DNA from: Streptomyces sp. NBC_01233
GTDB taxonomy: Bacteria; Actinomycetota; Actinomycetes; Streptomycetales; Streptomycetaceae
Length of the DNA: 64,000 nucleotides
Assembly (NCBI RefSeq): GCF_035989305.1
Contig: NZ_CP108514.1
Location: 2,480,501-2,544,500 of the forward strand
Direction: 5' to 3'
In this document: one piece after another, positions 4,669 through 23,475 of the stretch
Layout of the letters: every line of letters starts with the position of its first letter
How positions within the stretch are numbered: position 1 is the stretch's first letter
Program-made: the position numbers and the translations under genes
The notes under the pieces: generated by a model
Told to the model about the DNA's origin: nothing
Seen by the model: only the letters and a program-made list of their open reading frames with translations
Database searches by the model: none

Positions 4669-5127
4669 ATGAAGTCGACAACTCCCCCGCATTCAGCAAC
4701 GGCCCAGTCAACCGCCCTCACCCACGAGTTCGAGATGCGCTTCACTTCCACCCCACGCGGCGCACGGCTCGCCCGCCGTCTCGTTTCGCACCGCCTCCAC
4801 GACTGGGGGTACCCGTACAACACCACCGTCAACGACACAGTCACCCTCATCGCCGCCGAGCTCACCGCGAACGCCGTGCGCCACGGCCACGTCCCCGGCC
4901 GGGACTTCCACCTCCGACTCACCAGCGATGCCGCCGCCCTCCGCATCGAGGTCACCGACACCCGCACCGAGCTCACGCCCATCCCCACCACCCCCGCCCC
5001 CGACGCAGAGGCCGGCCGCGGTCTGCTCCTCGTAGCCGCCCTCGCCACCCACTGGGGCACCACCCCACGCACCGGCGCACCCGGCAAGACCGTCTGGGCC
5101 CGACTCGACACGATCGTCCGCCCTTGA
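4669..5127 (+). CDS. ATP-binding protein of the HATPase_c anti-sigma-like (SpoIIAB/RsbW) type
   Basis: The 152-residue protein carries the GHKL/HATPase N-box AAELTANAVRHGHVPG and a G-box region EAGRGLLLVAALATHWG. These mark the small actinobacterial anti-sigma-like kinases. The gene is divergent from the XRE/DUF397 pair, completing the common three-gene arrangement. ATG 4669 gives a family-like N-terminus before the FTSTPRGARLARR segment; a start at the later Met is possible. The substrate is unknown. Confidence 0.88.
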   Translation: MKSTTPPHSATAQSTALTHEFEMRFTSTPRGARLARRLVSHRLHDWGYPYNTTVNDTVTLIAAELTANAVRHGHVPGRDFHLRLTSDAAALRIEVTDTRTELTPIPTTPAPDAEAGRGLLLVAALATHWGTTPRTGAPGKTVWARLDTIVRP

Positions 5128-6615: not shown

Positions 6616-8183
6616 GTGAACGAGCACGCGGTCCTTCCGCTGTTCACGGGCAGGAGCCGCACCTGTCCCGCCGGCACCTTCAACGGCTTGTCGGCCGCCG
6701 CATTCCACAACGCGACCGTCCCGTCCGCCTCTCCGAAGGAGAGGTAGGGGTGCTCGGGGCGGAGCGTTCCGCCCTGCGTGTTCAGCTCGGCGGCCGGAAC
6801 CGTCGGTTCGACGCAGGTCCACTCCGGCTCGACCCCGAAGTACGACGGCGCCGGGCCTTTGCTCTCCGCTGCCGACTTCACCGCCGTGGCCGCGTTCCCC
6901 GCAGAATCCAACGCCAAGCCGGCGCAGATGGCGGCCACCGCGACCTGGGCCAGGACGTAGAGGGGTATGCCGAGCCGCTCGACCGGACTCACGATCGGCA
7001 CGTGCAGGTGCTTCGCGATCCCCCACGCCGCCGGTACGCACAGAGCGACACTCAGCAGGCTCAGCAGCTTGGCCGCGGAGGTGGCCTGCCAGATGCCCGG
7101 CACGTCCAGGTCGTCCACCGTCAGGTCGAGCTCGTCGGCGTACATGGCATGCAGCACCGACCCTGACGTGACCGCGAACGAGACGACAGCCCCGAATGCC
7201 AACGGGGCGCCCCACGTGAGCCACTCACCCCAGCTCCACTGCCGGACCAGTAGCCACAGCCCGAGGACAGAGGCCGTTACGGCCAGCACCTGGAGGACCT
7301 GGACCGGGGTCAACGGCTTGCCGTCGGGCGCGGTCAGGCCCAGCCCTGAGGAGAGGAAAACGGCGGCGGCCACCACGGCTACGAAGAGGCTGTGCCACCG
7401 CCCTCCCTGCGCGAACACCCCGAACGCAACGCGCATGGCCCCGCCGAAGCAAGCCACGGCGGCCAGGGACCAGAACCAGGTGCGTGCCCCACTGTGATGG
7501 CGGGCGAACACCGCGCAGAGGACCATCACGACCAGCCAGCCGAAGAACCGGTACATCCGTCGGCGCATGTCCTCCTCCCTGCGCGGCACGATGTGGCTGC
7601 GCTCCCGCCCGTACAGCGCCCGTACGTCGGTGGCCGGCCCGGCCGCGGTCCCACCGGGCATCGGCATCCGTGACAGCCTCCGCGCCTCGGAGGCGGTGCC
7701 GGTCACGACGTGCCCGGTGTCGTGACGCCCGCGCCGCTCGGTGGACCGGGCCCGGGCGAGCGTCCAGCGTCGACGCAGCCGTTGCGCCACGGTCAAGGCC
7801 CCCGGATCCGGAGCGCGGGGTGGCCGGTGCCCGACCGTGTGGAGCCTCCACTCAGTCAGCTGCTCGCGGTCCTGGTCGACCAGGTCGCAGCGCCTGGCGT
7901 ACATCTCAAGGCGGGCCCTGCGGGCGAGCCACTGCACCCGCCAGGCGGCGGCCCGCTCGGTACGCCGGTTGCGGGTCCCGAAGAGGCGCACCTCGACGGC
8001 GTACAACCGCGAAGCAGGATCCGCCCGTAGAACACCGGCCGACACGTCCTCCCCACGAGCGAACCAGCTGACGACCGGCCATCCCTGCTCCTCGAACTCC
8101 CGCTCCGCCTGGTCCCAGTCCCGCTGCTCACCCCTCACCTCGACCAGGACCAGCACCCTCTGGTCGTACCGCACCCGTCTCAT
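6597..8183 (-). CDS. Polytopic membrane protein of unknown function
   Basis: This is a 528-residue protein with no recognised family. The first ~215 residues are soluble and Arg-rich (strand LVLVEVRGEQ, then many RRR clusters). About seven hydrophobic segments follow, including FFGWLVVMVLCAVFA and LFVAVVAAAVFLSSGLGL. The last ~90 residues are hydrophilic with two Cys and probably lie outside. I chose ATG 8183 over ATG 8201; neither has a strong ribosome binding site. The gene is divergent from the hydrolase-membrane gene at 8317, and both are multi-spanning, so they may act together at the membrane. Confidence 0.75.
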   Translation of the reverse strand: MRRVRYDQRVLVLVEVRGEQRDWDQAEREFEEQGWPVVSWFARGEDVSAGVLRADPASRLYAVEVRLFGTRNRRTERAAAWRVQWLARRARLEMYARRCDLVDQDREQLTEWRLHTVGHRPPRAPDPGALTVAQRLRRRWTLARARSTERRGRHDTGHVVTGTASEARRLSRMPMPGGTAAGPATDVRALYGRERSHIVPRREEDMRRRMYRFFGWLVVMVLCAVFARHHSGARTWFWSLAAVACFGGAMRVAFGVFAQGGRWHSLFVAVVAAAVFLSSGLGLTAPDGKPLTPVQVLQVLAVTASVLGLWLLVRQWSWGEWLTWGAPLAFGAVVSFAVTSGSVLHAMYADELDLTVDDLDVPGIWQATSAAKLLSLLSVALCVPAAWGIAKHLHVPIVSPVERLGIPLYVLAQVAVAAICAGLALDSAGNAATAVKSAAESKGPAPSYFGVEPEWTCVEPTVPAAELNTQGGTLRPEHPYLSFGEADGTVALWNAAADKPLKVPAGQVRLLPVNSGRTACSFTYDGHS

Positions 8184-8316
8184 CTGCCCACCCCGCCTCA
8201 TCACACCGCACCGCACAGAAGTACGTGTCTCCCCAGGCCCGATATTCGCTACTCCACCGGAACCGTTTGCTGCAAACTTGAATGCTCCAGGTATCCGCCC
8301 CCGAGGAGCAGCCCCG

Positions 8317-10551
8317 TTGGCCAAGACCAGGAAGCGTCCCGGTCATGTACCGCGGCCCCGCCACCCGGTGGCCCCGCGCACCCCCGCAACCCGCTGGCGC
8401 GTGGGATATCTCTTCGTCCACGGGGTGGGCCATCAGAAGCCGGGCGACGCCCTCCAGTGGGGCAGGAACGTTATCGGAACACTCCAGGACGTTCACGGGG
8501 CACAGGCCGTCGCCTGGCGGGATCAACCGCTCTCGGAGACCCGTGCGGACCGGGAGACACGCCACGCCGAGGTCGTGCTCGACATCGGCGGAGCACGACG
8601 AACTGTGCTCTTCGCCGAGGCCTTGTGGTCCAGACGCTTCGCCGAACTGGGAAGGCCCTCCGCCTGGCGGACCCTCGTCTTCGTCCTGTCCGGTCTTCCG
8701 CTTCTCCTCTGGATCATCGGGCCGGACCATCGGGACCTTCGAGCGCTTGCACCTGCCCGCGGCCCTGCCCGCTGGTTCGCCCTCCATCCGGAGACGTACG
8801 CATTGGGCCGGCTCCTCTGGCGCCTTGCGACGCTGGCAGTACTGACCTTGGCCCTTGGATACGGTGTCGCACTCGCGCTCGCCGGATCGACTACCGCCCT
8901 CGTGGGGTCGGCGGTCGTGCTGGCCGGCCTGGCCTGGCTGGCCCGCTCTCGGATGAACCTCCTCTGGCACGTACGCGTCGCCGCTCTCGACGAGGAGCGT
9001 ACGCAGGCCCTGCTGTCGCACCTCCACCGGAAGCTGCACTGGATGGAGGCGCAGTGCGACGAGGTGGTGGTGGTCGCGCACTCTCAGGGCGGGTACCTCA
9101 TGCACCGCGTCCTGTCGCCCACCGCGAACCGGTCCCGTCCGAAGGTCCGGCGCTTCATCGGAGTCGGGTCCGGCCTCAAACCGATCGGCCTGCTCCGCTC
9201 GTTCGACCGCAGCGGCCTCACGACGCTCCTGTGGTCCGGCATCCTCGTGATGCCTGGATGGATCTGGGGTGTCTGGCCCTTGGTCGGGGAGCCGGTGGGC
9301 GGGTGTCTCCGGGCCCTGGTACGCGTGTGCTCTGCTGCGCTTCACACGTCTCTGGTGCCTGCCGCCGTCCTGTCCGATCCCGAAGGGTCCCGCCAGTGGT
9401 GGACGGCTGTCGCGCACGAATCTCTGCGGGCAGTAGCAGGCATCCCTGCTCCGCACCTGGACCTGGCCCACGGCGCCGCCGTCGCCGGATCGCTCAGTCT
9501 TGCCGTTCTCACCGGACGACTGATCCACGCGGCGCTCCTCGCCCGTCCGCCTTACTCCCTATCCCTCGACCACGACCGACGCCGCATCGAGTGGCGCGAG
9601 TACACCAGTCCCCACGACATGGTCGGGCGGATCCTGAGCCCCGGGGTGCCCGAGGATGTCGACCAGCCCTGGATCTCCGGCGCGGGGCATCCGCTCGGAG
9701 ACCACGTCCTCTACTTTCACCCGACCGGCGTTCTGCCTCGGCGGCTGGCGGCGGATCTACTCGCGGATCTCGCTGTCGCCCAGGGAGACGAGTTCGCTCG
9801 GGCGGCGGACGAATGGAAGCGGGCTGCCGGAGGCTTCGACGCAGCCAAACGCCGGCAGGCCTCCCGCCGCCGCGCACTGCACGGCCTGATCCTGGGCACG
9901 GGTGCAGCCGCGGTCATCGCTCCCCTCGTGTTGGTGCAGGCATCAATCGTGCAGGCCCTCCTCCGCGCCTGGTTCCCGTTCGCCGTCTGGCTGCTGCTCC
10001 TGACCGTGCTCTTCACCGGGATCAGCCACCTCAACGCACGCCGCGCCGCACGCACCTTCACATCCCGCCTGACCGGAAAGCTGCAGCGCGCCGCCAAGGC
10101 TTGGCAGGTACGTATCGTCCCCACGGGAGCCCGAGCCGTTCCCGCGCTCGCCGCGGCGACCGGCGGCGTCATCGCCCTCTTCGGCTGTGCACGCTTCTCC
10201 CTGGCGTCCATCCGGCAGGGAGACGCAACCCTCTGGCCTGCCTGGCCCCTGCTGGTGTTCATCGCCGCCGGCCTGCTGCTCATCGCATGTGCCACAGCGG
10301 CCGGTTACCCCGTGCGCAAGCGGTGGTCGGTGCTGCTGGGGTTGATCCTGCTCCTCGCGGCATCCGGTCCCCCGGCCCCCCAGGCGTACGGACTCCCCTG
10401 GGAGCTACGCCCGGAGATGACGCTGGTCGGCTGTCTTGCCGTCTGCCTGCTGAGCACGCTCGCAGGCACCGCTTGGGCTCAGCTCAAAGCCGTCGATCTT
10501 GTGGAGCTCACCGACCGGCCGGATGCCGTCGGGCAGAATCGGACGGGCTGA
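8317..10551 (+). CDS. Alpha/beta-hydrolase (lipase-like) fused to a multi-spanning membrane domain
   Basis: Translation most likely starts at TTG 8317, with GAGGAG (8303-8308) 8 bases upstream, giving 744 residues. Near the N-terminus is YLFVHGVGHQKPGD, an HG-type oxyanion-hole loop. Around residue 256 is VVVVAHSQGGYLM, a GxSxG nucleophile elbow. Hydrophobic segments are spread across the protein (about ten), with two between the HG loop and the elbow and a dense cluster after residue 520. A membrane-embedded esterase or phospholipase is the simplest reading. A candidate acid/His pair cannot be assigned by eye. Membrane-attacking lipases are known effectors of anti-phage systems, and the gene lies 42 bp upstream of the DUF262 gene. 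Confidence 0.8.
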   Translation: MAKTRKRPGHVPRPRHPVAPRTPATRWRVGYLFVHGVGHQKPGDALQWGRNVIGTLQDVHGAQAVAWRDQPLSETRADRETRHAEVVLDIGGARRTVLFAEALWSRRFAELGRPSAWRTLVFVLSGLPLLLWIIGPDHRDLRALAPARGPARWFALHPETYALGRLLWRLATLAVLTLALGYGVALALAGSTTALVGSAVVLAGLAWLARSRMNLLWHVRVAALDEERTQALLSHLHRKLHWMEAQCDEVVVVAHSQGGYLMHRVLSPTANRSRPKVRRFIGVGSGLKPIGLLRSFDRSGLTTLLWSGILVMPGWIWGVWPLVGEPVGGCLRALVRVCSAALHTSLVPAAVLSDPEGSRQWWTAVAHESLRAVAGIPAPHLDLAHGAAVAGSLSLAVLTGRLIHAALLARPPYSLSLDHDRRRIEWREYTSPHDMVGRILSPGVPEDVDQPWISGAGHPLGDHVLYFHPTGVLPRRLAADLLADLAVAQGDEFARAADEWKRAAGGFDAAKRRQASRRRALHGLILGTGAAAVIAPLVLVQASIVQALLRAWFPFAVWLLLLTVLFTGISHLNARRAARTFTSRLTGKLQRAAKAWQVRIVPTGARAVPALAAATGGVIALFGCARFSLASIRQGDATLWPAWPLLVFIAAGLLLIACATAAGYPVRKRWSVLLGLILLLAASGPPAPQAYGLPWELRPEMTLVGCLAVCLLSTLAGTAWAQLKAVDLVELTDRPDAVGQNRTG

Positions 10552-10592: not shown

Positions 10593-11909
10593 ATGTCGTT
10601 TGAGGACAGCGGTGCCAATCGAGCAGCAGGCGCGAAGGACCAGCTGTCGTTGTACGGACGCTACCTGGATGATCCGTCAGGTGAGGACAGCGGCGGCTTC
10701 CTCGTCGAGGTCGGCGCCGACGGGCGGAGCACGGACGTCGAGCTCGAGCTCCCCGATACGGAGCCCGAGAGCGAATCGGACCACATCAACGCTCCCTACG
10801 ATCCGTCCAAGATCGAGATCCAGACCAGCAATCCCACGATCAACCTTCTGATGTCCCGGCTGATCAACGGCATGATCGACCTCGCCCCGGACTTTCAGAG
10901 GAAGGCCGGCATCTGGTCGGACGAGCAGCAGAGCCGACTGATCGAGTCCCTCCTGCTCCGCATTCCGATCCCGTCCTTCTACGCGGCGGAGCTCGACGAC
11001 AGTTCCTGGGCTCAGGACAGCTCCTGGGCCATCGTCGACGGCATCCAGCGCCTGACGGCCATCGCCCGGTTCATCGCACCCGACGCCCTGGCACAGGTGG
11101 CGGGCATCGATGCGGGACCCCTGCCGCTACGCGGGCTGGAGTACCTGCGTGACGATTTCGAGGGCAAGGGTTACACCGATCTCTCCGGCCGCCTGCAGAT
11201 CCGGCTCAACGAGACGCAGGTCGTCGTTCACGTCATCCGCCCGGGGACTCCGGAAGAGGTCAAGTTCAACATCTTCGCCAGGATCAACACCGGCGGACTG
11301 CCTCTCACCCGACAGGAGATCCGTCACGCTCTCGTTCCCGGGCCGGCCCGTGAACTGCTGTCCTCGCTGGCGGATTCGGCAGAGTTCCGGTCGGCGACCA
11401 GCAACGGCGTGTACAGCGAGCGCATGGCCGACCGGGAGATGGTCCTGCGCTTCCTCGCCTTCCTCATCTCACCGCCCGACACCTTCAGGGCGCAGGACTT
11501 CGACCAGTTCCTGGCGCTCACCATGCGCCAGATCAACCGTCTGCCGGCCGAAGAACGCCAAGCGCATGCCCATGACTTCAAGCGCGCCATGGTGACGGCT
11601 GAGCGGATCTTCGACGGCCACGCCTTCCGCAAGCTGTATCCGGGGCAGGTCCGTCGATCTCCGGTCAACAAGGCCATTTTTGAGTCAGTGTCGGTCAACC
11701 TCGCCCGCCTCCCGGACCAAGATCATTCGACGCTGGTAGCGTCACGCCAACAGGTGGTCGAGGGCTTCCAGCAGCTCATGGCCAACCGGGACTTCGAGCG
11801 TGCTGTGTCCGTCGGAACGGGTGACCGGGCCAAGGTGGTCACCCGGTTCGCCCAGGTCCGTGACCTCTTCCGTACCGTGCTGGAGAGCAACGGGGGCACT
11901 GCGCAGTGA
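10593..11909 (+). CDS. DUF262 domain protein (GmrSD/ParB-like nucleotidase fold)
   Basis: A 438-residue protein starts at ATG 10593. The DUF262 core reads LMSRLINGMIDLAPDFQRK (the conserved DFQR region), then WAIVDGIQRLTAI near residue 149 (the invariant DGxQR motif), then FNIFARINTGG and LTRQEIRHAL. DUF262 is the N-terminal domain of the modified-DNA endonuclease GmrSD, and it also occurs alone in defence loci. No HNH (DUF1524) motif is visible in the C-terminal half, so nuclease activity is not evident. Its last codons overlap the ATPase start by 4 bp (GTGA), implying coupled expression and partnership. Confidence 0.93.
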   Translation: MSFEDSGANRAAGAKDQLSLYGRYLDDPSGEDSGGFLVEVGADGRSTDVELELPDTEPESESDHINAPYDPSKIEIQTSNPTINLLMSRLINGMIDLAPDFQRKAGIWSDEQQSRLIESLLLRIPIPSFYAAELDDSSWAQDSSWAIVDGIQRLTAIARFIAPDALAQVAGIDAGPLPLRGLEYLRDDFEGKGYTDLSGRLQIRLNETQVVVHVIRPGTPEEVKFNIFARINTGGLPLTRQEIRHALVPGPARELLSSLADSAEFRSATSNGVYSERMADREMVLRFLAFLISPPDTFRAQDFDQFLALTMRQINRLPAEERQAHAHDFKRAMVTAERIFDGHAFRKLYPGQVRRSPVNKAIFESVSVNLARLPDQDHSTLVASRQQVVEGFQQLMANRDFERAVSVGTGDRAKVVTRFAQVRDLFRTVLESNGGTAQ

Positions 11910-13063
11910 TCGAGCAACTGTCGCTGACCAACTTCAAGGCGTTCCGGTCCGCGGACATCAGGCTGGCCCCGGTCACTCTGCTCACCGGCCTCAATTCCTC
12001 GGGCAAGAGCACGGTCCTCCAGTCCTTGGCGTTGCTGCGCCAGTCCTACGACTCCGGCACGCTCATGCACACCGACGGAGACTCCAAGAGCCTCGGGGGT
12101 TTCCTCCTCGACGGCGAGCTGGTGGAACTGGGCACCGGGCAGGACCTCCTGCACGAGGACTTCATCCAGGTCGAGTCGGAACCCGACCCGCTGATCGCGG
12201 TCGGGTTCCGCGCCGAGGGACAGATCTTCGCGTGGTCCGCCCGGTACTCGCCGGAACAGGACGTACTTCCCCTCCGGCAGACGGTGCCGTCCGGAGAAGG
12301 GGATCGGGAACGATGGGGTGATCTGCCCCTGTTCTCCCGTCGATTCCAGTACCTGAAGGCCGATCGGATCGTCCCGGCCACCACCTACCCGAGATCCCAT
12401 CACCAGGCGATCGGTCGCGGCTTCCTCGGCGCGCGCGGCGAGCACACCGCCAACTTCCTCAGGCACCATGCCGAGGATGTCGTCCCCGAGGGTCCGCTGC
12501 GCCATCCGAAGGCTGCCGGACACAGGATGCTGGATCAGGTGGTCGCCTGGATGCAGGAGCTCTGCCCCGGTGTGAACCTGGAGGCCGACGAGATCCCAGG
12601 AGTGGACTCGGTTCGCCTCAGCTACGGGTTCGGCGGAACGACCGGGCTGAACTCCACCCGCCGCCGGCGTCCCACGAATGTCGGCTTCGGTCTGACCTAC
12701 GCGCTTCCCATCGTCGTGGCGTGCATGGCCGCGACCACCGGCAGCCTCATCCTCCTGGAGAATCCGGAGGCCCATCTGCACCCGCGTGGCCAGTCCCGTA
12801 TGGCCATGCTCATCGCGACCGCGGCGGCCGCGGGGGCTCAGGTGATCGTCGAGACGCACAGCGACCATGTGCTGGACGGGACCCGGCTCGCGGTCAAGCA
12901 GGGACGGCTGGCGGCCTCGGACACCGCGATCCACTACTTCCGCGGCAACGGTGCCGGCGTACAGATCGTCACCCCCACCATCGCCGAGGACGGCTCGCTC
13001 TCGGAATGGCCCGAAGGATTCTTCGACGAGTCGGACCACACGCTGGACCAGCTGCTGGGCTGA
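11906..13063 (+). CDS. AAA/ABC-type ATPase with DUF3696
   Basis: The 385-residue protein begins IEQLSLTNFKAFRSADIRL and has Walker A GLNSSGKST (residues 28-36), Walker B LILLENPEAHLHPRGQ (Glu near 285), and VIVETHSDHV supplying the switch His. The C-terminal region fits DUF3696. This is the SMC/OLD/RecF-like predicted ATPase class found in many anti-phage loci, where it senses or powers a partner effector. No TOPRIM domain follows, so it is not a complete OLD nuclease. It is coupled to the DUF262 gene and lies 45 bp before the next gene. Confidence 0.93.
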   Translation: MIEQLSLTNFKAFRSADIRLAPVTLLTGLNSSGKSTVLQSLALLRQSYDSGTLMHTDGDSKSLGGFLLDGELVELGTGQDLLHEDFIQVESEPDPLIAVGFRAEGQIFAWSARYSPEQDVLPLRQTVPSGEGDRERWGDLPLFSRRFQYLKADRIVPATTYPRSHHQAIGRGFLGARGEHTANFLRHHAEDVVPEGPLRHPKAAGHRMLDQVVAWMQELCPGVNLEADEIPGVDSVRLSYGFGGTTGLNSTRRRRPTNVGFGLTYALPIVVACMAATTGSLILLENPEAHLHPRGQSRMAMLIATAAAAGAQVIVETHSDHVLDGTRLAVKQGRLAASDTAIHYFRGNGAGVQIVTPTIAEDGSLSEWPEGFFDESDHTLDQLLG

Positions 13064-13107
13064 CCGCGCCGTCGTCGATCCGAGAGCCACGAGGGGGGAG
13101 TACTTCA

Positions 13108-14042
13108 GTGGTGCTCATGTTCTTGAACGAGAAGTCCTGTGTGTCCGACTGCACCCAGGCCGAGGCCGGCAAGGCCATGCGTGACTTCATCGATGTCTGC
13201 AGGGAGGTCTGGCGCGTCCACAACGGGGCGACGCTGGTGAGCGAGGTCAAGTTGGAAGACCTGGAGATCGCTCCTGGCTATTACCTCCAGCAATGGCGCA
13301 ACGAGGCCGGCAACCGCGATGCCTGGCAGTTCATGCGCAGGGTCCTCCAGCGCAAGGCTCCACTGTCCGGGGTACTGCCCAAACCGCCGGAGGACCAGGA
13401 GAGCGAATACCGCCACGAAGGCGACCCGGTCCTCGGGCTGGCCGCAGCCCATCTGATGAACACACTGGCTGTCAGCCTCCCCACCTCTCCCGTCTGGGAG
13501 GCTCCGTGGCTCAAGGTCGACTACGAGCTGCTCGACGAGGATGAGCTGACCGCGTCGAGCGCAGACGTCCGCCATGCCTCCGAGAGCGGGCATGTGCAGG
13601 AGCACGAGCAGTGGATCCGCGACACGGCCGCCTCCGCCGCCGCCACCGGAGCACACTGTGGGAGGAGCGTGAAACCCTCTTTCCATGCCTCCAGTTCGTG
13701 CCGGGCGTGGAAGAGAACCTGCGCGAACTGCCTGGTGTGGCCGTGCCCAACGTGCGAGCCGAGCTGTTTCGCCTCAACGCCGCGGCGGAGGCCTGGACTC
13801 CCGGGGAGTCGGAGCCCGCGTGGGCAGTCAGGGTCGTTCCCGAAAGCGACACGCGCATCAACCAAGGGCTGTGCAACTTCACCGACCTCGACGGCAGCAA
13901 GCAGCTCTTCAGCCTCCACGTCCGGTACCAGCCGCACCAGGGCCGTATCCACCTCCGGCTGATCACGGACGAGGGCAAGATCCGAGTGGGATACATCGGC
14001 CGCAAACGGCTCACGGCCGGCGTGCCGCGCAACGCCCGATAG
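13108..14042 (+). pseudogene. Unrecognised third gene of the DUF262-DUF3696 set, frameshifted
   Basis: GTG 13108 has a GAGGGGGGAG site 7 bases upstream and opens VVLMFLNEKSCVSDC. The frame reads sensibly to about 13640. Thereafter the sensible protein continues in another frame from TLWEERETLFPCLQF to SLHVRYQPHQGRIHLRL and IGRKRLTAGV, ending at 14042. The switch lies in or next to a GCC-rich tract at 13628-13648 and fits one missing base. Joined, the product would be about 310 residues. I do not recognise the family. The broken frame is either a recent mutation, a sequencing error in a GC repeat, or a recoding event; no canonical slippery heptamer is visible. Confidence 0.7.
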
Positions 14043-14368
14043 CCGAGCTGCTCACCGGAGCCGACGGGCCCGGACGGGGCCGCGATCCACCTCACTCTCC
14101 GGCCCGCCACCCTGCCTCGACACGGCATGGCTGACACCCCGGGCGTTCCCTGCCCGTGCGCTCCATCAGGTCCCCGGGGGCCGATGTCGGCGTTCACCGG
14201 GCCGTCCGGTCCTCCCGCAGTCTCCAGACCTCCGCGAGCACCTTCCAGGACAGCCCGATCGGGCAGTGGCCGGAATCAGCCGTCACCGACCGGTACGAGG
14301 AGGGATGTCGGGGGCTGCATATACCGTTGTCGCAGATCATCCACCTGGACGAATCGAAGGAGAACGTC
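14043..14368. other. 326-bp gap before the large helicase gene
   Basis: No convincing coding sequence is present. The helicase frame is open upstream to 14156, but that extension has no ribosome binding site and poor composition. A short AT-rich TATACC occurs near 14320-14330 without a clear -35 partner, so a promoter here is possible but not demonstrated. AAGGAG at 14357-14362 serves the GTG start at 14369. Confidence 0.6.
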
Positions 14369-17300
14369 GTGAGGCCCACGCTGGCCGCCGCGCAGCTGCG
14401 GGGCAGTCTCACCCAGTACCTCACGACGACGTACGCGCTGACGGACGAAGACACCCGACGTGCACTCGAACGGTTCCTGGAGCACCCGGAGACCGGCATG
14501 TTCCGGGGGCCGTACCTCCGGATCAGGACACCGTTCCACAAGGCCGAGGACGGCTGGCGCAAGCATCTGGAGTGGACTCCGGGATTCGTTCCGTACCGGC
14601 ACCAGGCGAAGGCGTTCGAGCGGCTGAGCACCCTGCACGGTCCGGCGCTGCCCACGCTCATCACCACGGGCACGGGATCGGGCAAGACCGAGTCGTTCCT
14701 GATTCCGGCGCTCGACCACTGCCGCCGGGAGAAGGCCCGGGGACGGCGTGGGGTGAAGGCCGTTCTTCTCTATCCGATGAACGCGCTGGCCACCGACCAG
14801 GCGAGCCGCATCGGCGAGTATCTCGCCCAGCCGGAGCTCGCCCAGGTAACGGCCGGCCTGTACATCGGCGACCGCCCCGACACCGACTTCCGCCGGGTGA
14901 TGACCCGGCGCGAGGAGATGCGTCAGTCGCCGCCCGACCTGCTCATCACCAACTACAAGATGCTGGACCTCCTGCTGCAGCGGAGCGAGGACCGGGCCTT
15001 GTGGGAGGACGCCCTCGTCCAGTACGTGGTGCTCGACGAGTTCCACACGTACGACGGGGCCCAGGGCACCGATGTGGCGATGCTGCTGCGCAGGCTGGCG
15101 ATGACGACGGGCCAGAGCGAGCCGGGACGTCCGCTGGGTGGGATCTGCCCGGTGGCGACTTCGGCGACGCTCGGCGAACCCGGTCCTGCGGCCTCGTCCG
15201 GGGGGATCCTGGAGGTGGCCTCGCAGGTCTTCGGGATGCCGTTCCCCGCGGACGCACTGGTCGGTGAGGAACGGCTGCCGGCCGAGCAGTTCACCGGCCC
15301 GGTGAACTACGCCCTGCCGGAACCGCCCTCGCCCGAAGAGATCATCGCGTGCTCCGGCGGTTCCGACGTGGTGGCTCGGCCGGACAATCTGGATCTCAAC
15401 GCTCTGGCAGCCAGGCTGCTGGGGCAGCACGGGCTGACGGCGTTCGAGATCGGCCGTCTGCTCAAGCAGCATGACTTCACCCAGGGTGTGCTCTCGCTTC
15501 TGGACGGCGAACCCCTGAGTGAATGGGAGCTCCGGGACCGCCTCGGCCGCTTCGGCTATGCCTGGGGGCGAGCCGCGCGTGAGAACCCACGGCTCGCCCT
15601 GTCGGCGCTCGCACGCTTCGTGGCCCTCCTGTCCGCCGCGCGTGATCCCGACTCGGACGAGCAGCGGCCCCGGCCCCTGCTCCATGTGGAGTCACATCTG
15701 TGGGTGCGTCCGGTGGGCCGGATCGTCCGCGGAGTGGGCCCCGGCAGGCCGGAATTCCACTGGTACGAGGATGACCGCGCGCGTCGAGCCGCCCTGGCGA
15801 CCGCACCCCCGGACGGCACTGCCGAGGAAGCCGAACACGCATCGGGCAGCCGCCCTGCGTCCGGCTCCCTGCGCGCGCAGCCCGCGGTCGGTGCGGACAC
15901 GACGATGCGCGAGGCCGCGATACGGCTGCCCGCCGCCTACTGCCGCAACTGCGGACGCTCCGGCTGGGCCGCGATCTCCCCCGAGGCCGACCCCCAGCAG
16001 CTGGTGATGGCCCACGACAAGATCTGGCGCGCCAGCGTCGGCCGTGACAAGCGTCGCATCAGATACTTCATCGCGGCCACCGAATCGGAGAGGGCGGAGG
16101 CCCTGGCCGCTCTGGACTCGGCTGCTCCGACCACCTCGGGTGGCAGCCCGATCCCCGCGCTGGTGCTCGACGGAGCCCAAGGTGTGTACCGGCTGCCCGT
16201 ACCGGAGGATGCCGGCAGCCTGCAGGACGCCTGGTTCGTCTTCGCCGTCACCGACAAGAAGTCGGCGGACAAGGCAGCCCTCGACCAGCGCTGCCCCGTC
16301 TGCGGCGCCGACAACGCGATGCGCTTCCTCGGCACCCGACTTGCCGCCCTGGCCTCGGCGACCGTCACGCAGCTGTTCACGGGGGGAGAAGTCGCCCTCG
16401 TACCGGAGGAGCGCAAAACGCTCCTGTTCAACGACTCGACGCAGGATGCCGCGCACCGGGCGGGGTACGTGGCGAATCGCTCGTTCACCTTCTCCCTGCG
16501 TTCGCTCCTCACCCACAACCTCGAGGAGTCGGGGCAGCCGCTCGCCCTCAACGACCTCATCGCCAACGTGCTGGAGTCCGTGGACGATCCGGAGGCTCTC
16601 GCGGCGGTCGTGCCACCCGATCTGCACGACGAGCCCGGCGTGGACCGGCTGTTGTCCGGGCGCGGCAAGGGTGACGTGCGAACCTGGAAACTGATCGGGG
16701 AGCGGCTCGCCTTCTCCACCGTCATGGAGTTCGGGCTGCGCTCCCGCCAGGGGCGGACCCTGGAACTGACCCGCACGGCCGCTGCCGAAGTCGCGATCGA
16801 GAACCAGCACCGCATCACGATGCTCGCGCGCGACGTGCACCTGACCCTGCCCGGCCAACTGATCGTCGGGGAGGGACTGCCGACCGCGGAGCGTTACCTT
16901 GCCTTTGTCCGCGGACTGCTGGAGCGGGTCCGGCTGCGCGGTGGAGTCCGACACCGCTGGCTGGAGCCTTGGATGAAGGACTCGGGGGTGGCCCGGTTCA
17001 AGATCTGGGGCGGCCGGCCCGATGGGATGCCGGCCTTCCCCGATGGTGTGGCCGCCCCGCGCTTCCTGCTGGACAACCCGAAGGACAGGTCGGACTTCGA
17101 CGCTGCCGCCGCCCGCTCCGGCTGGTACCAGGACTGGACCCAGCGCTGTCTCGGGCTCGATGCGGCCGGCGCCGCCGAGTACCTCCGCCGTCTGCTGCCC
17201 ACTCTCGCCGAGGAAGGCCTGCTCGCGGTGCGCACGGCACAGGACCGGGCGACACGGGTGTACGGGCTGCAGCCGGGCCACATCCACGTGTGGCTCCTGG

Positions 17301-20300
17301 AGGACGACATCGTCAACAAGGCATTCGTGAGCTGTGAGCGCTGTGGCTGGCAGCAGGTCGTGCACCCCTCCCGCCGCACTCGCTGGTACGGCCACCCCTG
17401 CCCGCGCTACCGCTGCCAGGGCCGCATCACCGCACCCCAGCCGGGGATGTCGATGTCGGGATCCACCACTTTCGGCGGCACCCGGCCCCGTGACTACAAA
17501 GAGGACTACTACCGGCAGCTATACCGGACCGGCGGAGCCTTCCGGGTCGTCACCGCGGAGCACACGGGCATGCTCACCCGACCGCAGCGCGAGCGCGTGG
17601 AACGGTCGTTCCGTGACGGCACGCACTACACGGACCCCAATGTGCTGTCGTGCACCCCGACCCTGGAACTCGGCATCGACATCGGCGACTTGTCCGCCGT
17701 CCTGTTGGGCTCCCTGCCCAAGGGACCCGCCAACTACGTACAACGTGCAGGCCGGGCCGGCCGCAAGACCGGTAATGCCCTCGTCGTCGCCTTCGGCGGC
17801 CGGCGTCCACGCGACCTGTACTACCTCGACGATCCCCGCGAGATGATCGCCGGGGACATCGTCCCGCCCGGTTGCTACCTCTCCGCAGTCGAGATCCTGC
17901 GCCGTCAGTACACCGCGCACCTGCTCGACCTCGCGGCGCGCGGCCAACTGTCCACGGGTGACGGAGAGCGGCTGCAGCCCGCCCCGCGCCTGGTGTCCGC
18001 GCTGTTCGGCAGTTCGGGCTGGTGCCAGGACCTCACGGACGCCGCGCTCACGCACGGCGCCTCGCTCGTCGAAGCCTTCCTCGGCCTGTTTCCTTCTCTC
18101 CCGGGCATCGAAGGAACAGGCATCACCCCGCACGCCGCCGACACACTGCGGACGTATGCCACCAGCGGGATCGCCCGCGCGCTACAGGAGGCCGAAGAGG
18201 ACTGGACGGGCCGGGGCGAGGAGCTGCGGCGCCGCATCCACTCCATCGACGAGGCGATGGGCCTGCTGGTCCGCAGCGACCCGGAACAGGACAGGGAATG
18301 GCGGGAGCTGCGCGCCGAGCGGTACGCGACCGGCAATCTGCTGCGCGACCTGAACCAGACGAGCGCCCATGGCGCACTCGTCGAACTCGGTCTGCTGCCC
18401 AACTACAGCCTCGCCGACACCACCACACAGCTGGAAGCCACCCTCTACTGGACCGAGGAGCCCGAGAGCGAGGGCGCGAAGAAGATCTACCGGAGCGAGG
18501 TGCGGGACTACGAGCGCTCACGCAAGCTCGCTCTGTCCGAGCTGGCACCCGGCAACAGCTTCTACGTCAACGGCTACAAGCACGTGGTGCGGGCACTGGA
18601 CATCGGCAGTCCCGAACGGCGCGCCTGGTCGGTGTGGCGGATGTGCCCGGCATGCGGTTACGTGCGCACCGAGAATGCGCAGACCGACGCTTCTCCATGC
18701 CCGCGGTGCGGCGGACGGGAGATCGCCGATGCGGGCTGTGTGCAGCGGGTCCTGGCACCCAAGCGGGTTCTTGCCCGCGACAAGCGTGACGACGCCCGGG
18801 TCCGGGACGACAAGGACGAGCGGGAGAGCAAGCGCTACGCGATGCTCACCACCGTCGATATCGACCCCGTGCACCTCGCTCCCGACTCATGGCGCCACGA
18901 CAGCGCGGTGTTCGGTGTGGACTTCTCCCGGCAGGCGGTGGTCCGGACCCTGAACCTGGGGCTTGACCGCCAAGACGGAAGCAGCACCGCCCCGCTCGCC
19001 GGCGCCGACGTGCGGATCAACCCGTTCTACGTGTGCGAAAGCTGTGGCGGTGCCACCAGCGAAGGCCGTCCCGTCATCGACCGGCCCCAGGACGCGCTGA
19101 CCGAATCTCTCGCGGCAGCGACCAAGGCAAGCTCTCACCACCTGCTGTGGTGCCCGCGCCGCAAGGTTCGCTCCACGGCGGCCGAAGGGCAGGGCAAGGG
19201 CAGCGACGTCCCCCTGCTCCTCGCGCACGAGCTGGTGACCGAGGCCGTCCGGATCCTGCTGCCGGCTTCCGTCGCCCGTGCCAAGGAACGGCTTGCTTCC
19301 TTCACCGCGGCCATGTTCGCCGGCATCGCCGCACGGTACGGAGGCGACCCGGACCACATCGACATCGCTGCAGCCTCCATGCCGGACGGCAGCGACTCCG
19401 ACTGGCCCCGGCAGTTCCTCGTCGTCTATGACCGCCTGCCCGGCGGAACCGGCTACCTTCACCGCCTCGCCACCGCCGAGGGCTTCCGTGAGGTGCTGCT
19501 GAAGGCCCGGGAGGTGATCGAGACCTGTACCTGCATCGAGAAGGGCCTCGACGGATGCCACCGCTGTCTGCTGCGCCGAGTGCCGGCCGGTGACTACGAC
19601 AAGGTCAGCCGCAACGAGGTCCGCCAGATGCTGGACGAGCTGCTCGGAGACGACGGCGAGGCCTGGTCGACCTCACCCGTGGCCGCGACGCACCACATCT
19701 CGTTGGAGCGTCAGGCGGAGAGCGACCTCGAGGTCATGTTCATCGACACGCTGGGCGCATGGGCCCAGCAGCCCTCGTCCCAGGCCAGTGCTGACGCGTA
19801 CACGACGACGGCTGGGACGTACTCGCTGGACCTGAGGCTGACCGGAGCCGACGGAGCCACCATCAGCTGGCGGGTCTCCCAGCAACGGGTCCTGGAAGGG
19901 ACCCGCCCCGATGTGCTCTTCGAACGGACCGACGCTCCCGGTCAGCGGATCGCTCTCTACCTCGACGGGTACGAGTACCACGCAAGCCCGAAGCACATCG
20001 ACCGAGCGGCTGCCGACGCCGCGAAGCGCACCCGGTTGCGCTCGGACGGGCTCCGCGTTTTCCAGCTCACGTACTTCGATGTGAAGGAGTGGCGCACCCG
20101 GGTGCACGACACTGGCTATGCCGGTACCGGCCCGCAGGACCCCGTCTGGATCCCCTACGGAGAGAGCGGCCAGAAGAGGGCACGCGAGTACTACGCCGGT
20201 GTGCGCCGCAGACTGCCCGGTGAGCTCGCCGCAACGGTCTGGATCAATCCGGCGGACCTGCTGCTCGCCTACCTCCGTGCACCTGACGCGGATCTCTGGC

Positions 20301-21205
20301 AGTGGCGTGCAGAGGCCGCCGTCGCCGGGCTGACCGGTGCCGGCGCCCGGCTGGCACCGATCGACCCGCAGGTCGTAGGGGAGCAGATCACGGCAGTCCT
20401 CCGCGGCGCCGCACCACAGGGACCGAAGGGAGCCGTCCAGCTGCTCACCGCCCTGGACGGCTCGGGCTGCTCGGTGACGGCGGCCGCCGACGGGCGCCAT
20501 AGGCCCCCCGTCTGGACTGCGCTGACCGTACTGGACGACAGCGCGCAGGCGCTGTCGGACGAATCCGCGCACAAGCGTCGTTGGCAGGCATGGCTGTACT
20601 GGAGCAACGTGCTGCAATTCCTTGAGCACGGAGGTGGTGACAGCACCCAACTGACGACGAGCATGCTGGATGGCTTCAGCCCCGACAGCCTCGCCGTCAC
20701 GGGTGGCGCCGGCTGGCTGGCGTCGAGCCGCGTCGACCGGGTGGTCCCGGATGCGGTGGCCGCGACGACCGCACCCGTCGAACCGTCTGAAGCGCCTGTA
20801 CCGCCTGTGCCGCCTGTGCCGTCAGGCACTGAAAAGGCCCTGGTGACGGCAGACTCGGAATGGGACCAGGTCATGGAGTTCCTCGATCCTGACGAACCGG
20901 GCCTGGCACGGCTGGCCACGGACCTGGCGGCGCTGTCGGTCCCTGCCCCGCACGCCGGCCACGAGCTCGACGAGCACGGCTGGATGGCCGAACTGGCCTG
21001 GCCTGCTGCCCGGATCGCAGTGGTCACCGCTCCCCGCCCGGTGGGCGAAGAGCGGGACTACGAAGCCGAGGACCGGGACAGGGCCTTCGCCGGGGCGGGC
21101 TGGTGGGTCACCACTGCCGCTGACTGCACCGCCGCGGACATCGCAGACCGTCTGGCCGCCGCCCACGACAACGGCACATACCGCACCCACGGAGAGCGAC
21201 AGTGA
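14369..21205 (+). CDS. Giant DEAD/DEAH-type helicase with DUF1998 and nuclease-like C-terminal regions
   Basis: GTG 14369, with AAGGAG 6 bases upstream, gives 2278 residues. Walker A TTGTGSGKTES has its Lys at 106; motif II is LDEFHTYDGAQGTDV (DEFH at 223-226); the C-terminal RecA lobe has SCTPTLELGIDIGDL and motif VI QRAGRAGRK at 1125. Several Cys-pair zinc motifs lie between the lobes and after them (for example YCRNCGRSG, CERCGW, CPACGYV). A DUF1998/MZB region around 1620-1740 includes CTCIEKGLDGCHRC. Near 1846-1900, RPDVLFE, then LYLDGYEYH and KRTRLRSDGLRVFQL resemble a Vsr/PD-(D/E)xK-type fold. The overall build recalls DrmA/DruE of DISARM and Druantia. It overlaps the next start by 4 bp. 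Confidence 0.9.
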   Translation: MRPTLAAAQLRGSLTQYLTTTYALTDEDTRRALERFLEHPETGMFRGPYLRIRTPFHKAEDGWRKHLEWTPGFVPYRHQAKAFERLSTLHGPALPTLITTGTGSGKTESFLIPALDHCRREKARGRRGVKAVLLYPMNALATDQASRIGEYLAQPELAQVTAGLYIGDRPDTDFRRVMTRREEMRQSPPDLLITNYKMLDLLLQRSEDRALWEDALVQYVVLDEFHTYDGAQGTDVAMLLRRLAMTTGQSEPGRPLGGICPVATSATLGEPGPAASSGGILEVASQVFGMPFPADALVGEERLPAEQFTGPVNYALPEPPSPEEIIACSGGSDVVARPDNLDLNALAARLLGQHGLTAFEIGRLLKQHDFTQGVLSLLDGEPLSEWELRDRLGRFGYAWGRAARENPRLALSALARFVALLSAARDPDSDEQRPRPLLHVESHLWVRPVGRIVRGVGPGRPEFHWYEDDRARRAALATAPPDGTAEEAEHASGSRPASGSLRAQPAVGADTTMREAAIRLPAAYCRNCGRSGWAAISPEADPQQLVMAHDKIWRASVGRDKRRIRYFIAATESERAEALAALDSAAPTTSGGSPIPALVLDGAQGVYRLPVPEDAGSLQDAWFVFAVTDKKSADKAALDQRCPVCGADNAMRFLGTRLAALASATVTQLFTGGEVALVPEERKTLLFNDSTQDAAHRAGYVANRSFTFSLRSLLTHNLEESGQPLALNDLIANVLESVDDPEALAAVVPPDLHDEPGVDRLLSGRGKGDVRTWKLIGERLAFSTVMEFGLRSRQGRTLELTRTAAAEVAIENQHRITMLARDVHLTLPGQLIVGEGLPTAERYLAFVRGLLERVRLRGGVRHRWLEPWMKDSGVARFKIWGGRPDGMPAFPDGVAAPRFLLDNPKDRSDFDAAAARSGWYQDWTQRCLGLDAAGAAEYLRRLLPTLAEEGLLAVRTAQDRATRVYGLQPGHIHVWLLEDDIVNKAFVSCERCGWQQVVHPSRRTRWYGHPCPRYRCQGRITAPQPGMSMSGSTTFGGTRPRDYKEDYYRQLYRTGGAFRVVTAEHTGMLTRPQRERVERSFRDGTHYTDPNVLSCTPTLELGIDIGDLSAVLLGSLPKGPANYVQRAGRAGRKTGNALVVAFGGRRPRDLYYLDDPREMIAGDIVPPGCYLSAVEILRRQYTAHLLDLAARGQLSTGDGERLQPAPRLVSALFGSSGWCQDLTDAALTHGASLVEAFLGLFPSLPGIEGTGITPHAADTLRTYATSGIARALQEAEEDWTGRGEELRRRIHSIDEAMGLLVRSDPEQDREWRELRAERYATGNLLRDLNQTSAHGALVELGLLPNYSLADTTTQLEATLYWTEEPESEGAKKIYRSEVRDYERSRKLALSELAPGNSFYVNGYKHVVRALDIGSPERRAWSVWRMCPACGYVRTENAQTDASPCPRCGGREIADAGCVQRVLAPKRVLARDKRDDARVRDDKDERESKRYAMLTTVDIDPVHLAPDSWRHDSAVFGVDFSRQAVVRTLNLGLDRQDGSSTAPLAGADVRINPFYVCESCGGATSEGRPVIDRPQDALTESLAAATKASSHHLLWCPRRKVRSTAAEGQGKGSDVPLLLAHELVTEAVRILLPASVARAKERLASFTAAMFAGIAARYGGDPDHIDIAAASMPDGSDSDWPRQFLVVYDRLPGGTGYLHRLATAEGFREVLLKAREVIETCTCIEKGLDGCHRCLLRRVPAGDYDKVSRNEVRQMLDELLGDDGEAWSTSPVAATHHISLERQAESDLEVMFIDTLGAWAQQPSSQASADAYTTTAGTYSLDLRLTGADGATISWRVSQQRVLEGTRPDVLFERTDAPGQRIALYLDGYEYHASPKHIDRAAADAAKRTRLRSDGLRVFQLTYFDVKEWRTRVHDTGYAGTGPQDPVWIPYGESGQKRAREYYAGVRRRLPGELAATVWINPADLLLAYLRAPDADLWQWRAEAAVAGLTGAGARLAPIDPQVVGEQITAVLRGAAPQGPKGAVQLLTALDGSGCSVTAAADGRHRPPVWTALTVLDDSAQALSDESAHKRRWQAWLYWSNVLQFLEHGGGDSTQLTTSMLDGFSPDSLAVTGGAGWLASSRVDRVVPDAVAATTAPVEPSEAPVPPVPPVPSGTEKALVTADSEWDQVMEFLDPDEPGLARLATDLAALSVPAPHAGHELDEHGWMAELAWPAARIAVVTAPRPVGEERDYEAEDRDRAFAGAGWWVTTAADCTAADIADRLAAAHDNGTYRTHGERQ

Positions 21206-23475
21206 TGACGACCAGAGGCGTGACCCTGCGCCTGCTCGACAAGGCGGACAAAGAGATCCTCAAGCTGCCCCGTGCGGTGAAGGGTGCGATCTACGACTTC
21301 CAGCACAAGTTCAAGGAGAATCCGCAGGCGCGAGGCCTCCGGCTGAAGCAGCTCGAAGGGCACGACAGGCTCTGGTCGGCCCGGATCACCGACGAATACC
21401 GGGCCCTGCTGCTCCACTTGGCCGACAGCGACTGGCTCATCGTCTCGGTCAAGCACCGCAAAGAGGTGTACGAGAAGCTCGACCGCCTCTCGTACGGCAT
21501 CAACCAGGTCACCGGCGGCATCGAGTACGTCGACCTCCAGGTGGTCGAGGAGAGCGTGCTGCGCCGCGCGGTACCTCGTCCGACCCGGGCATCTGAACCC
21601 GTACCTGAACCAGCACCTGAACAGCTCGCTGCCGGACTCGCCCCTTCGGTAGCGCTGTTCGATGCGTTCTCCGACGGACAGCTCACCGACCTCGGCGTTG
21701 CCGCGCCTCTGGTGCCCGTCGTCCGCACCCTCACCACCGAGGACCAGTTGCTCGGCCTCGCCGAGTACACTCCACAGCTGACCTCCGAGGTGCTGCTCGC
21801 ACTGCACGACGGCAAGTCCTACGAAGAGGTTCTGGACCAGGTCACCGCCCCCGTCACCGCGCCGGAGCCGGTCGACCCCGAGGACTTCCGAGCGGCGGCC
21901 GAGCGACCCGCGACCATGGTCACGACCACCGACGAGGCGCTTCGTGAGGCCCTGGAGGGTGGCGACTTCAGCCGTTGGAAGGTGTTCCTCCACCCGACGC
22001 AGGCACGGTTGGTGGAACGCGAATACTCCGGTCCTGCCAGGGTCGGCGGCGGGCCGGGCACCGGCAAGACGATCGTCGCGCTCCACCGGGTGAAGCACCT
22101 CGTCGCGCAGCTTCCGCCGGGCCGGACCAAGCCGGTGCTCCTTACCACGTACAACAAGAACCTCGCTGCCGATCTGAGGTCCCGCCTCCTCGAACTCGGC
22201 GGTGAAGCGCTGCTGTCACGTGTGGAGATCAGCCACGTGGACCAGCTGGCGCTGCGCGTCGTACGCGAGGCGGAGCCGGGAAGCAGCAAGCAGACCCTGG
22301 ACGAGAGCCAGACCTTGCGCGAGTGGCGCGCGATGCTCGACGAGTTGAACGAGACGGGCTGGGATGCACAGTTCCTGCACGACGAATGGTCGCAGGTCAT
22401 CCTGGGGCAGGCCGTCGTCTCAAGGACAGAGTACTTCCGTGCACGCAGAGCCGGACGTGGGAAGAACATCGGCCGCCCGGAGCGCGCTGCGATCTGGCAG
22501 CTCGCCGAGCGCTTCACCCAACGGCTCGACCGCCTCGGACGGCAGACATGGGAGCAGGTCGCGGAACGTGCGGCGCGTCTGGAGATGGAACGGGCACAGC
22601 GGATCCAGGCCATCGAACAGCAGCGCGAGGAGGCTGGCGGCCTGGACAACGTCCATCTTCAGGCCGGCTCGGCCGGCTGGCTCCGACACCGGTACAGGCA
22701 CATCGTCGTCGACGAGGCCCAGGACCTGCGCGCCGCGCACTGGAAGCTGCTCCGCGCCATGGTCCCGCGCACGAGCAACGACATCTTCCTCGTCGGCGAC
22801 ACGCACCAGCGCATCTACAACAACCCGGTGACGCTCGGCAGCCTCGGCATCAACATCCGTGGACGCTCCTCGAAGCTGACCCTCAGCTACCGCACAACTC
22901 GGCAGATCCTTGGCTCCGCACTCGGGGTGCTGAGCGGAGAGACCTTCGACGACCTGGACGGAAGCAGCGAAGACCTCGACGGCTACCGCTCGGTCCTCAC
23001 TGGCGGTCTGCCCCGGCTGCACGGCTGTGAGGACTGGGAAAGCGAGCGCGCCGCGATCGCCGATCTCATTTCCGACTGGTCCGATGTCCCCCTCGTACAG
23101 ATCGCGATCTGTGTCCCGACCAACGACATGGCGCGCGAGGTCGGGCTCGCTCTGGGCGAGCGAGGCATCAGGGCGGTGGAGATCGGGCCCGAGGGGCCGC
23201 GCGGCGACGACGGCGTACACATCGGCACGATGTACCGGTTCAAGGGTCTCGAGTACCAGCGGATGATCATCGCTGGTGTTCGGGACGGACTGGTCCCCCG
23301 GGAGGCCGTGACGCACCTTCGCACCACCGATGCCGTCCGCTACCGCCGTGAACTGCAGCGGGCGCGCTCGTTGCTCTTCGTGGCGGCGACCCGGTCGAGG
23401 GACAGCCTCGCCATCTTCTGGCACGGTCGGCCGAGTCCGTTCCTGGAGCCGCTCATGAGTCTGCGCGCCGGGTGA
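21202..23475 (+). CDS. RelE/ParE-like domain fused to a UvrD-type superfamily 1 helicase
   Basis: Start GTG 21202 overlaps the stop of the giant helicase; ATG 21205 is an equal alternative. Residues 1-105 look like a RelE/ParE toxin fold: FKENPQARGLRLKQLEGHD, LWSARITDEYRALLL, then IVSVKHRKEVYEKL. Residues ~255-750 form a UvrD/Rep helicase: GGPGTGKT (Lys 289), VVDEAQDL (D504), LVGDTHQRIY, LSYRTTRQIL, IGTMYRFKGLEYQ and LFVAATRSRD. The helicase is short because 2B-type insertions are reduced. Whether the toxin-like domain cuts RNA or acts as a DNA/ribosome anchor is unknown. It is 757 residues and ends 23 bp inside the converging SWIM gene. Confidence 0.9.
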   Translation: MMTTRGVTLRLLDKADKEILKLPRAVKGAIYDFQHKFKENPQARGLRLKQLEGHDRLWSARITDEYRALLLHLADSDWLIVSVKHRKEVYEKLDRLSYGINQVTGGIEYVDLQVVEESVLRRAVPRPTRASEPVPEPAPEQLAAGLAPSVALFDAFSDGQLTDLGVAAPLVPVVRTLTTEDQLLGLAEYTPQLTSEVLLALHDGKSYEEVLDQVTAPVTAPEPVDPEDFRAAAERPATMVTTTDEALREALEGGDFSRWKVFLHPTQARLVEREYSGPARVGGGPGTGKTIVALHRVKHLVAQLPPGRTKPVLLTTYNKNLAADLRSRLLELGGEALLSRVEISHVDQLALRVVREAEPGSSKQTLDESQTLREWRAMLDELNETGWDAQFLHDEWSQVILGQAVVSRTEYFRARRAGRGKNIGRPERAAIWQLAERFTQRLDRLGRQTWEQVAERAARLEMERAQRIQAIEQQREEAGGLDNVHLQAGSAGWLRHRYRHIVVDEAQDLRAAHWKLLRAMVPRTSNDIFLVGDTHQRIYNNPVTLGSLGINIRGRSSKLTLSYRTTRQILGSALGVLSGETFDDLDGSSEDLDGYRSVLTGGLPRLHGCEDWESERAAIADLISDWSDVPLVQIAICVPTNDMAREVGLALGERGIRAVEIGPEGPRGDDGVHIGTMYRFKGLEYQRMIIAGVRDGLVPREAVTHLRTTDAVRYRRELQRARSLLFVAATRSRDSLAIFWHGRPSPFLEPLMSLRAG

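Follow-up and report, generated by a model that had tools for sequence, protein, structure and literature searches.

A probable remainder of an ARMADA Type II locus with Menshen genes as cargo between armB and armC in Streptomyces sp. NBC_01233

We analysed a 64,000-nucleotide stretch of Streptomyces sp. NBC_01233 (contig NZ_CP108514.1, positions 2,480,501 to 2,544,500 of the forward strand; hereafter the window), in which an earlier note had proposed five rightward genes at 10593-23475 as a candidate new defence system. The layout described there was verified. Genes 1 and 2 and genes 4 and 5 overlap by 4 bp, 44 bp separate genes 2 and 3, and a 326-bp gap (14043-14368) lies between genes 3 and 4. 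The family reading (DUF262, DUF3696-ATPase, DUF1998 helicase and RelE-UvrD) was also correct, and PADLOC and Pfam matches agreed with defence-type genes. Gene 3 lies where it had been placed but is not one open frame; it consists of two NsnC pieces in different frames.

10593-11909, forward strand: gene 1, nsnA, 438 amino acids (PADLOC NsnA, 435.8 bits; PF03235, DUF262/GmrSD_N, 78 bits)
11906-13063, forward strand: gene 2, nsnB, 385 amino acids, AAA_21 + DUF3696 ATPase (PADLOC NsnB, 381 bits; PF12476, 43 bits; PF13304, 69 bits)
13108-13650, forward strand: gene 3, nsnC piece 1, N-terminal part (PADLOC NsnC, 190 bits, profile positions 2-179 of 305)
13653-14042, forward strand: gene 3, nsnC piece 2, in another frame, RelE-like in the model of a relative (PADLOC NsnC, 131 bits, profile positions 184-303)
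14369-21205, forward strand: gene 4, armC, 2278 amino acids, open frame, YprA-type DEAD helicase with MZB (DUF1998) and a nuclease-like tail
21202-23475, forward strand: gene 5, armD, 757 amino acids, open frame, RelE-like N-terminus and UvrD/GajB-like helicase

Genes 1-3 were identified by these profile matches as nsnA, nsnB and nsnC, three families that together we take to be the Menshen system. All three are adjacent, in order and on one strand. The name of the system reportedly comes from Millman et al. 2022. In NsnA, residues D149, G150, Q152 and R153 of the D149-G-x-Q-R motif were invariant among 10 aligned sequences. Menshen is described as including a DUF262 gene plus a TOPRIM/OLD component (PMC10952713), and a Pfam scan of the window proteins found no TOPRIM/OLD component. 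Two differences from Menshen were observed: nsnC is frame-broken, and the cassette sits within another system.

The break in nsnC lies near 13642-13653. The first 178 residues align with profile positions 2-179, the frame from 13108 continues to a stop at 13962, and homology switches to the frame of about 13653-14042. In 18 of the 20 members of the close set nsnC is a single frame of 306-315 amino acids, the exceptions being the window and G158 (242 amino acids; G denotes genomes, L stretches, and G000 the genome of the window itself). Programmed frameshifting was rejected because nsnC of the relatives is one continuous frame. A search of the own genome with the unbroken NsnC of a relative returned the same two pieces and no further copy. 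The window was classed, from these frames, as a Menshen locus with a disrupted nsnC. An error of assembly, which would leave Menshen intact, is an unlikely explanation of the break. In its favour, it would take a single event, it agrees with the continuous frame of the close set, and G000 is one assembly of 4 contigs. In the model of an intact relative, the C-terminal part of NsnC was predicted to be RelE-like (mRNase-type), and Foldseek with both predicted models gave no match at E <= 0.001. Residues H271 and R280 of NsnC were invariant among 46 aligned sequences.

The start of armC at 14369 was picked from homology. Pfam detected DEAD, Helicase_C and MZB (DUF1998) domains in ArmC, and part of its tail gave no match to PDB sequences. 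ArmD matched UvrD-helicase in Pfam and GajB in PADLOC (84 bits each). Its residues 11-90 matched the RelE-type structure 2khe (E 0.008), and Pfam ParE_toxin gave just 14 bits, below the cut-off. ARMADA II, as described by Bell et al. 2025 (PMC12458937, preprint), consists of ArmA (SNF2/BrxHII-like), ArmB (PglX-like methyltransferase), ArmC (YprA-like helicase with a Vsr nuclease tail) and ArmD (RelE-UvrD). By domain architecture and order, genes 4 and 5 were named armC and armD, the final two genes of ARMADA Type II: the three ArmC domains and an ArmD directly after ArmC are both present, the RelE part being weak in Pfam. The relatives keep armA-armB-armC-armD, whereas this strict order is not found in the window, which lacks armA and retains the last ~107 codons of armB.

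Three other systems were considered and rejected. ArmC had its best PADLOC model in DruE of Druantia (289 bits, partial), but its downstream partner is RelE-UvrD and no Dru partner gene was detected by PADLOC among 9 window proteins scanned. Gabija does not fit because armD adjoins armC and no GajA OLD-family nuclease is present, NsnB matching GajA models weakly (best 47 bits). As for DISARM, partial DrmA matches fall within one 2278-amino-acid protein, and no DrmC was found among the window proteins scanned.

The missing part of ARMADA was traced to two features upstream, overlooked by the earlier note and joined out of frame.

2930-3128, forward strand: start of a Ser/Thr kinase gene, left as a remnant of 66 codons (66 residues, 91% identical in amino acids to the beginning of the G205 kinase)
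3130-3450, forward strand: armB remnant comprising the final ~107 codons, in a frame other than that of the kinase remnant (75% over 107 residues to the armB C-terminus of G205)

The kinase remnant showed a Pkinase fragment of 25 bits, below the 31.7 cut-off, and the armB remnant had no Pfam match. G205 holds 8,776 extra bases between the kinase and armB points that are joined in the window; as read from this comparison, one 8.8-kb deletion removed armA completely, along with the greater part of both the kinase gene and armB. Searches of the window, of the 19 kb to its left (L143) and of the own genome found no close copy of either armA or armB. Distant matches in the own genome were a methylase (38%) and an SNF2 helicase (33%) close together at G000:C1:7412349-7416847 (reverse strand), perhaps a DISARM- or BREX-like pair, and an armA/armB-type match near C1:6.32 Mb.

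The relatives retain the upstream genes. In 40 upstream stretches the order was mostly a Ser/Thr kinase gene first, then an SNF2 helicase gene (ArmA) and then a large methyltransferase gene (ArmB). When the three G130 proteins were scanned, the best PADLOC model was DrmD for ArmA (266 bits) and REase_MTase_IIG for ArmB (855 bits). ArmA was present in all 11 other Menshen-carrying loci, and the kinase gene lay upstream of armA in the same 11/11, plus 17 + 6 further loci and G272 (tblastn tallies, here and below, used cut-offs of 50-55 bits, and 120 bits for arm genes in named-genome stretches). This upstream kinase gene in Streptomyces is an addition to ARMADA II as described. In four armC loci from other genera (L226-L229, drawn from the 8 of 396 phylum genomes with armC), tblastn detected no such kinase gene in the upstream stretches covered, and in all four armC directly follows armB without cargo. 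The Streptomyces cellulosae NBC 01657 plasmid NZ_CP109251.1 also lacks cargo and carries kinase, helicase, large protein, armC (48%, tblastn) and UvrD helicase, as judged from annotation and spacing. Among plasmid records, 92 matched ArmC and 5 covered at least 80% of it, Streptomyces plasmids being among those 5.

Beside the kinase remnant, a DUF4011 helicase gene (ProA/Hhe-like, below NCBIfam cut-offs) runs divergently at window 1-2673 on the reverse strand and is cut by the window edge. In G030 (L224) a homologue (55-61%) flanks the kinase gene at the equivalent position; none was found next to that gene in G205, G282 or G148.

The earlier note took a near absence of joint occurrence of genes 1-3 and genes 4-5 as a refutation of a single system; by this test the two sets do occur together. 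Among 295 genomes, sampled from the one genus Streptomyces, NsnA was found in 28, armC in 43 and armD in 49 at the E-values set, and armC and armD occurred together in 41. NsnA and armC were found together in 13 genomes against 4.1 expected (Fisher p 1.8e-5, relatedness ignored), but 15 of the 28 NsnA genomes had no armC and 30 of the 43 armC genomes had no NsnA. In 12 of the 13 shared genomes, window included, NsnA starts 3.4-8.3 kb before armC on the same strand. In the 11 of these other than the window, nsnABC lies between armB and armC in the same order and on the same strand. The thirteenth genome, G170, has NsnA and armC on separate contigs. Its stretch L156 shows a second armB followed by an XRE regulator and nsnABC, with no armC within 18 kb; L248 and L286 likewise have armB and nsnABC without armC.

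An obligate, integrated five-gene system of nsnABC and armCD was considered very improbable. Identical order and strand in 12/12 adjacent cases and the excess of shared genomes speak for it; the many genomes with one set and not the other, and the kinase-armA-armB genes that the relatives carry as well, speak against it. The trees point the same way. The ArmC tree (40 rows; G158, G271, G040 and G116 left out) requires the Menshen label to change five times, with four or more of these changes forced by well-supported branches, and the NsnA tree (28 rows) requires at least three changes of the in-ARMADA label. NsnA lies within ARMADA in 12 of 20 close copies and 0 of 8 distant ones, the G170 copy beside armB being counted as outside. 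Because each is frequent without the other, Menshen and ARMADA are separable systems. The new five-gene system is thereby replaced by Menshen (genes 1-3) and the tail of ARMADA Type II (genes 4-5), and the alternative offered in the earlier note, two adjacent systems divided by the 326-bp gap, was borne out.

A search of named genomes gave 195 relatives, of which the best 80 were kept. These lean towards embedded copies, because the query alignment A1 was built solely from ARMADA-embedded NsnA (10 of the 12), and at least 12 of the 80 (5 of the 24 embedded) duplicate genomes of the 295 sample, e.g. L240 = G172. In 24 of the best 80 of 195, armB preceded and armC followed nsnABC, all in Streptomycetaceae (24/45, against 0/35 of the others). 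armC without armB was seen in a further five, of which two lie at a contig start and one shows the reverse order, and armB without armC in two. In an uncultured gammaproteobacterium (L296:4755-13157) an armC-like gene (38%) lies ~5 kb ahead of nsnABC, that is, in the reverse order.

We read the whole locus, with a probability of about 0.88, as what remains of the right-hand side of an ARMADA Type II locus that has a cargo slot at the armB-armC junction, with Menshen among the cargo. As armB is reduced to its last ~107 codons, the window was classed as a truncated ARMADA derivative rather than as a system of that type. Since armC and armD are open and the window branch has no excess of amino-acid changes, the damage probably happened recently. 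Counted from the outgroup G282, the window and G205 showed, respectively, 105 and 139 changes in armC, 33 and 36 in armD, 20 and 28 in nsnA, and 22 and 25 in nsnB, the frames of nsnA and nsnB being open as well. In E. coli all four Arm genes of ARMADA were required (PMC12458937), and as two of these four essential proteins are missing, ARMADA defence is not expected from the window copy. Given the deletion, and the frame change that severs the RelE-like part of NsnC, the copy is unlikely to function either as ARMADA or as Menshen.

That the leftover nsnAB and armCD are still useful as a reduced system was judged improbable. Its frames are open over 2278, 757, 438 and 385 codons without a rate increase, and G181 also retains armCD without armA or armB in the stretches fetched; against this stand the E. 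coli requirement and a recent deletion, which accounts for open frames without selection. G181 belongs to a set of other decayed ARMADA loci (L117, L147, L161, L162), and in G116 and G271 armC is broken or partial. Other embedded copies are flawed too: armC of G158, whose nsnC is short, lies in three frames, and the NsnA matches of G172 and of G108 each contain one stop codon.

Between the armB remnant and nsnA, the slot of the window holds three regulator-type genes and three cargo genes.

3518-3721, reverse strand: BldB-paralogue (DUF397) small protein, 67 amino acids (PF04149, 68.6 bits)
3718-4551, reverse strand: WhiJ-paralogue regulator, HTH_31 + DUF5753, 277 amino acids (PF19054, 182 bits; PF13560, 50 bits)
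4735-5127, forward strand: AbaA-paralogue HATPase_c_2 protein, 130 amino acids (PF13581, 47 bits)
5146-6615, forward strand: cargo, 489 amino acids, no Pfam, PADLOC or NCBIfam match (58-60% homologues in the corresponding place of L233 and L234)
6597-8204, reverse strand: cargo, cluster C13, 535 amino acids, matching neither PADLOC nor Pfam families (slot homologues in G205, G148, L232-L234, L236 and L272)
8401-10551, forward strand: cargo, 716 amino acids, with no more than a faint alpha/beta-hydrolase signal (DUF900, 12.6 bits, below cut-off)

In Streptomyces, the XRE-DUF5753, DUF397 and HATPase families correspond to the sets of WhiJ, BldB and AbaA paralogues (PMC10294661). In the paralogue loci described there the three genes also stand side by side; here they lie within a defence operon beside defence cargo. 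The slot was compared over 42 of the 44 armC places (G040 and G116 left out), 35 of which had armB and armC in one stretch; G181, G030, G017, G260, G271, G316 and G281, with no armB in the stretch, did not enter the comparison. In 25 of the 35 loci, the window being counted through its armB remnant, armB and armC are split by at least 1.9 kb, and in the other 10 they abut within 5 bp. An XRE-DUF5753 + DUF397 gene pair on the opposite strand was present in 23/25 split and 0/10 abutting loci; for a HATPase gene oriented like armB the counts were 21/25 and 0/10. Of the 24 named embedded loci (best 80 of 195), 22 had the XRE gene, 21 DUF397 and 20 HATPase. A single clade unites eight loci that have the regulators and, at most, some small additional genes; in one of the eight, G316, the contig ends within the slot. 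With outgroups included, the presence of the slot has to change at least twice on the ArmC tree. Most of the Streptomyces clades sampled differ from ARMADA II as described in having such a slot, with regulators and cargo, at the armB-armC junction.

The cargo varies. HEC-01A/B homologues occur in five relatives (530 and 239 bits for the G282 pair), and the slot of S. caeruleatus (L236) holds both HEC-01 and Menshen. G030 has a GmrSD protein and a DrmD-like helicase, and another slot carries a Beta protein; 6 of 10 slot proteins scanned had no match to a defence family. Defence genes nested inside defence systems are known as a principle, guilt-by-embedding (PMC12988326). Those loci, reportedly described by Payne et al. 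with their HEC and PDC candidates, resemble the present one in having defence genes inside another defence system, and HEC-01A/B homologues occupy the ARMADA slot. The present loci differ in that ARMADA II is the host and that regulators of the WhiJ/BldB type occur in the slot. Homologues of two of the three cargo genes in 5146-10551 also accompany nsnABC in Streptomyces sp. Ncost-T10-10d (L233) and S. globisporus (L234). L232 is part of the split locus of S. atratus OK807. The slot of G285, G115 and G277 contains a caspase domain fused to an AAA helicase (L116:5760-9680, forward strand) with a small partner (L116:5322-5753), a candidate defence cassette.

We tentatively propose, and would not put it near an even chance, that the WhiJ/BldB-type switch makes a regulated docking site between a modification half (kinase-armA-armB) and a helicase-nuclease half (armC-armD), driving armC-armD and the plugged-in cassette (Menshen, HEC-01, GmrSD, others) from its own divergent promoter. 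Mere clustering in a defence island, in which Menshen and the regulators were inserted at armB-armC by chance without a functional link, is quite possible, though somewhat less likely than not overall. The same place is occupied by other cargo types and defence genes generally cluster. The lone Menshen loci G221 and G318 also have the regulators, and G220 has the HATPase gene only. What is harder to reconcile with chance is the same junction and the same regulator pair in 23/25 split against 0/10 abutting loci, although many of the loci are related. With 31 DUF5753 matches over the 10.3 Mb of the own genome (~1 per 330 kb), a chance occurrence in a given 11-kb stretch is ~3%, but the split loci, being related, are not 25 independent events. 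Also on the side of clustering, in the named loci L236 and L272 some cargo precedes the regulators, so the slot is not always opened by them.

The main rival to the switch idea is that the regulators are a toxin-antitoxin addiction module (DUF397-HTH) which stabilises the slot. DUF397-HTH pairs have been proposed as such modules (PMC7159879, PMC4239341). We regard this as rather unlikely here: in S. venezuelae, WhiJ9 is needed to activate its neighbouring gene and loss of BldB strongly raises transcription of an abaA paralogue (PMC10294661). Of 133 stretches (2.2 Mb), 15 contain a single copy of a palindrome close to TACGCTGACTCAGCGTA (L108, L110-L112, L124, L253, L256, L258, L259, L261, L263, L270, L281, L284 and L295), against 0 for a single reversed control pattern; the pattern was picked from the same sequences in which it was later counted, and L111 and L261, at least, come from one genome. 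In the stretches where it was placed, the site separates the whiJ-like gene from the rightward (abaA-like) gene that follows, and it is a possible operator. The clade to which the window belongs lacks it in the stretches searched. A second operator was rejected, as the palindrome has no second copy elsewhere in the loci.

The gene order in the relatives is kinase - armA - armB - [whiJ-like/bldB-like/abaA-like regulators and cargo, here including nsnABC] - armC - armD. In such loci ArmB would modify DNA, and ArmA, ArmC and ArmD may act as motors and nucleases on invading DNA, in line with the E. coli tests of Bell et al. (PMC12458937). The kinase might be an added sensor or gate. Menshen would work as separate cargo, with the NsnA NTPase sensing, the NsnB ATPase relaying, and NsnC as the likely effector through its predicted RelE-like domain.

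Both systems are already known; what looks new is the armB-armC slot with its WhiJ/BldB-type regulators, together with the added kinase. The main text of PMC12458937 contains no occurrence of kinase, Streptomyces, Menshen or DUF397, and no description of the kinase, of a fixed armB-armC break or of the regulator link was found in the titles, abstracts and passages covered, supplements and most subscription papers aside.

A supposed new five-gene system is thus replaced by a nested locus of two recently described systems, in a damaged copy whose missing genes the relatives retain. The predicted RelE-like domain at the end of NsnC hints at the target of Menshen. The slot offers a natural series of ARMADA loci, with no insert, with regulators only, and with regulators and varied cargo. 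Among actinobacterial genomes that contain bldB, the median number of bldB paralogues is 19, most of them with no assigned role (PMC10294661), and a role of the BldB/WhiJ-type regulators of Streptomyces in phage defence becomes testable. If the proposed switch is true, at least some whiJ/bldB/abaA paralogue loci, known as developmental or antibiotic regulators, would be phage-defence switches.

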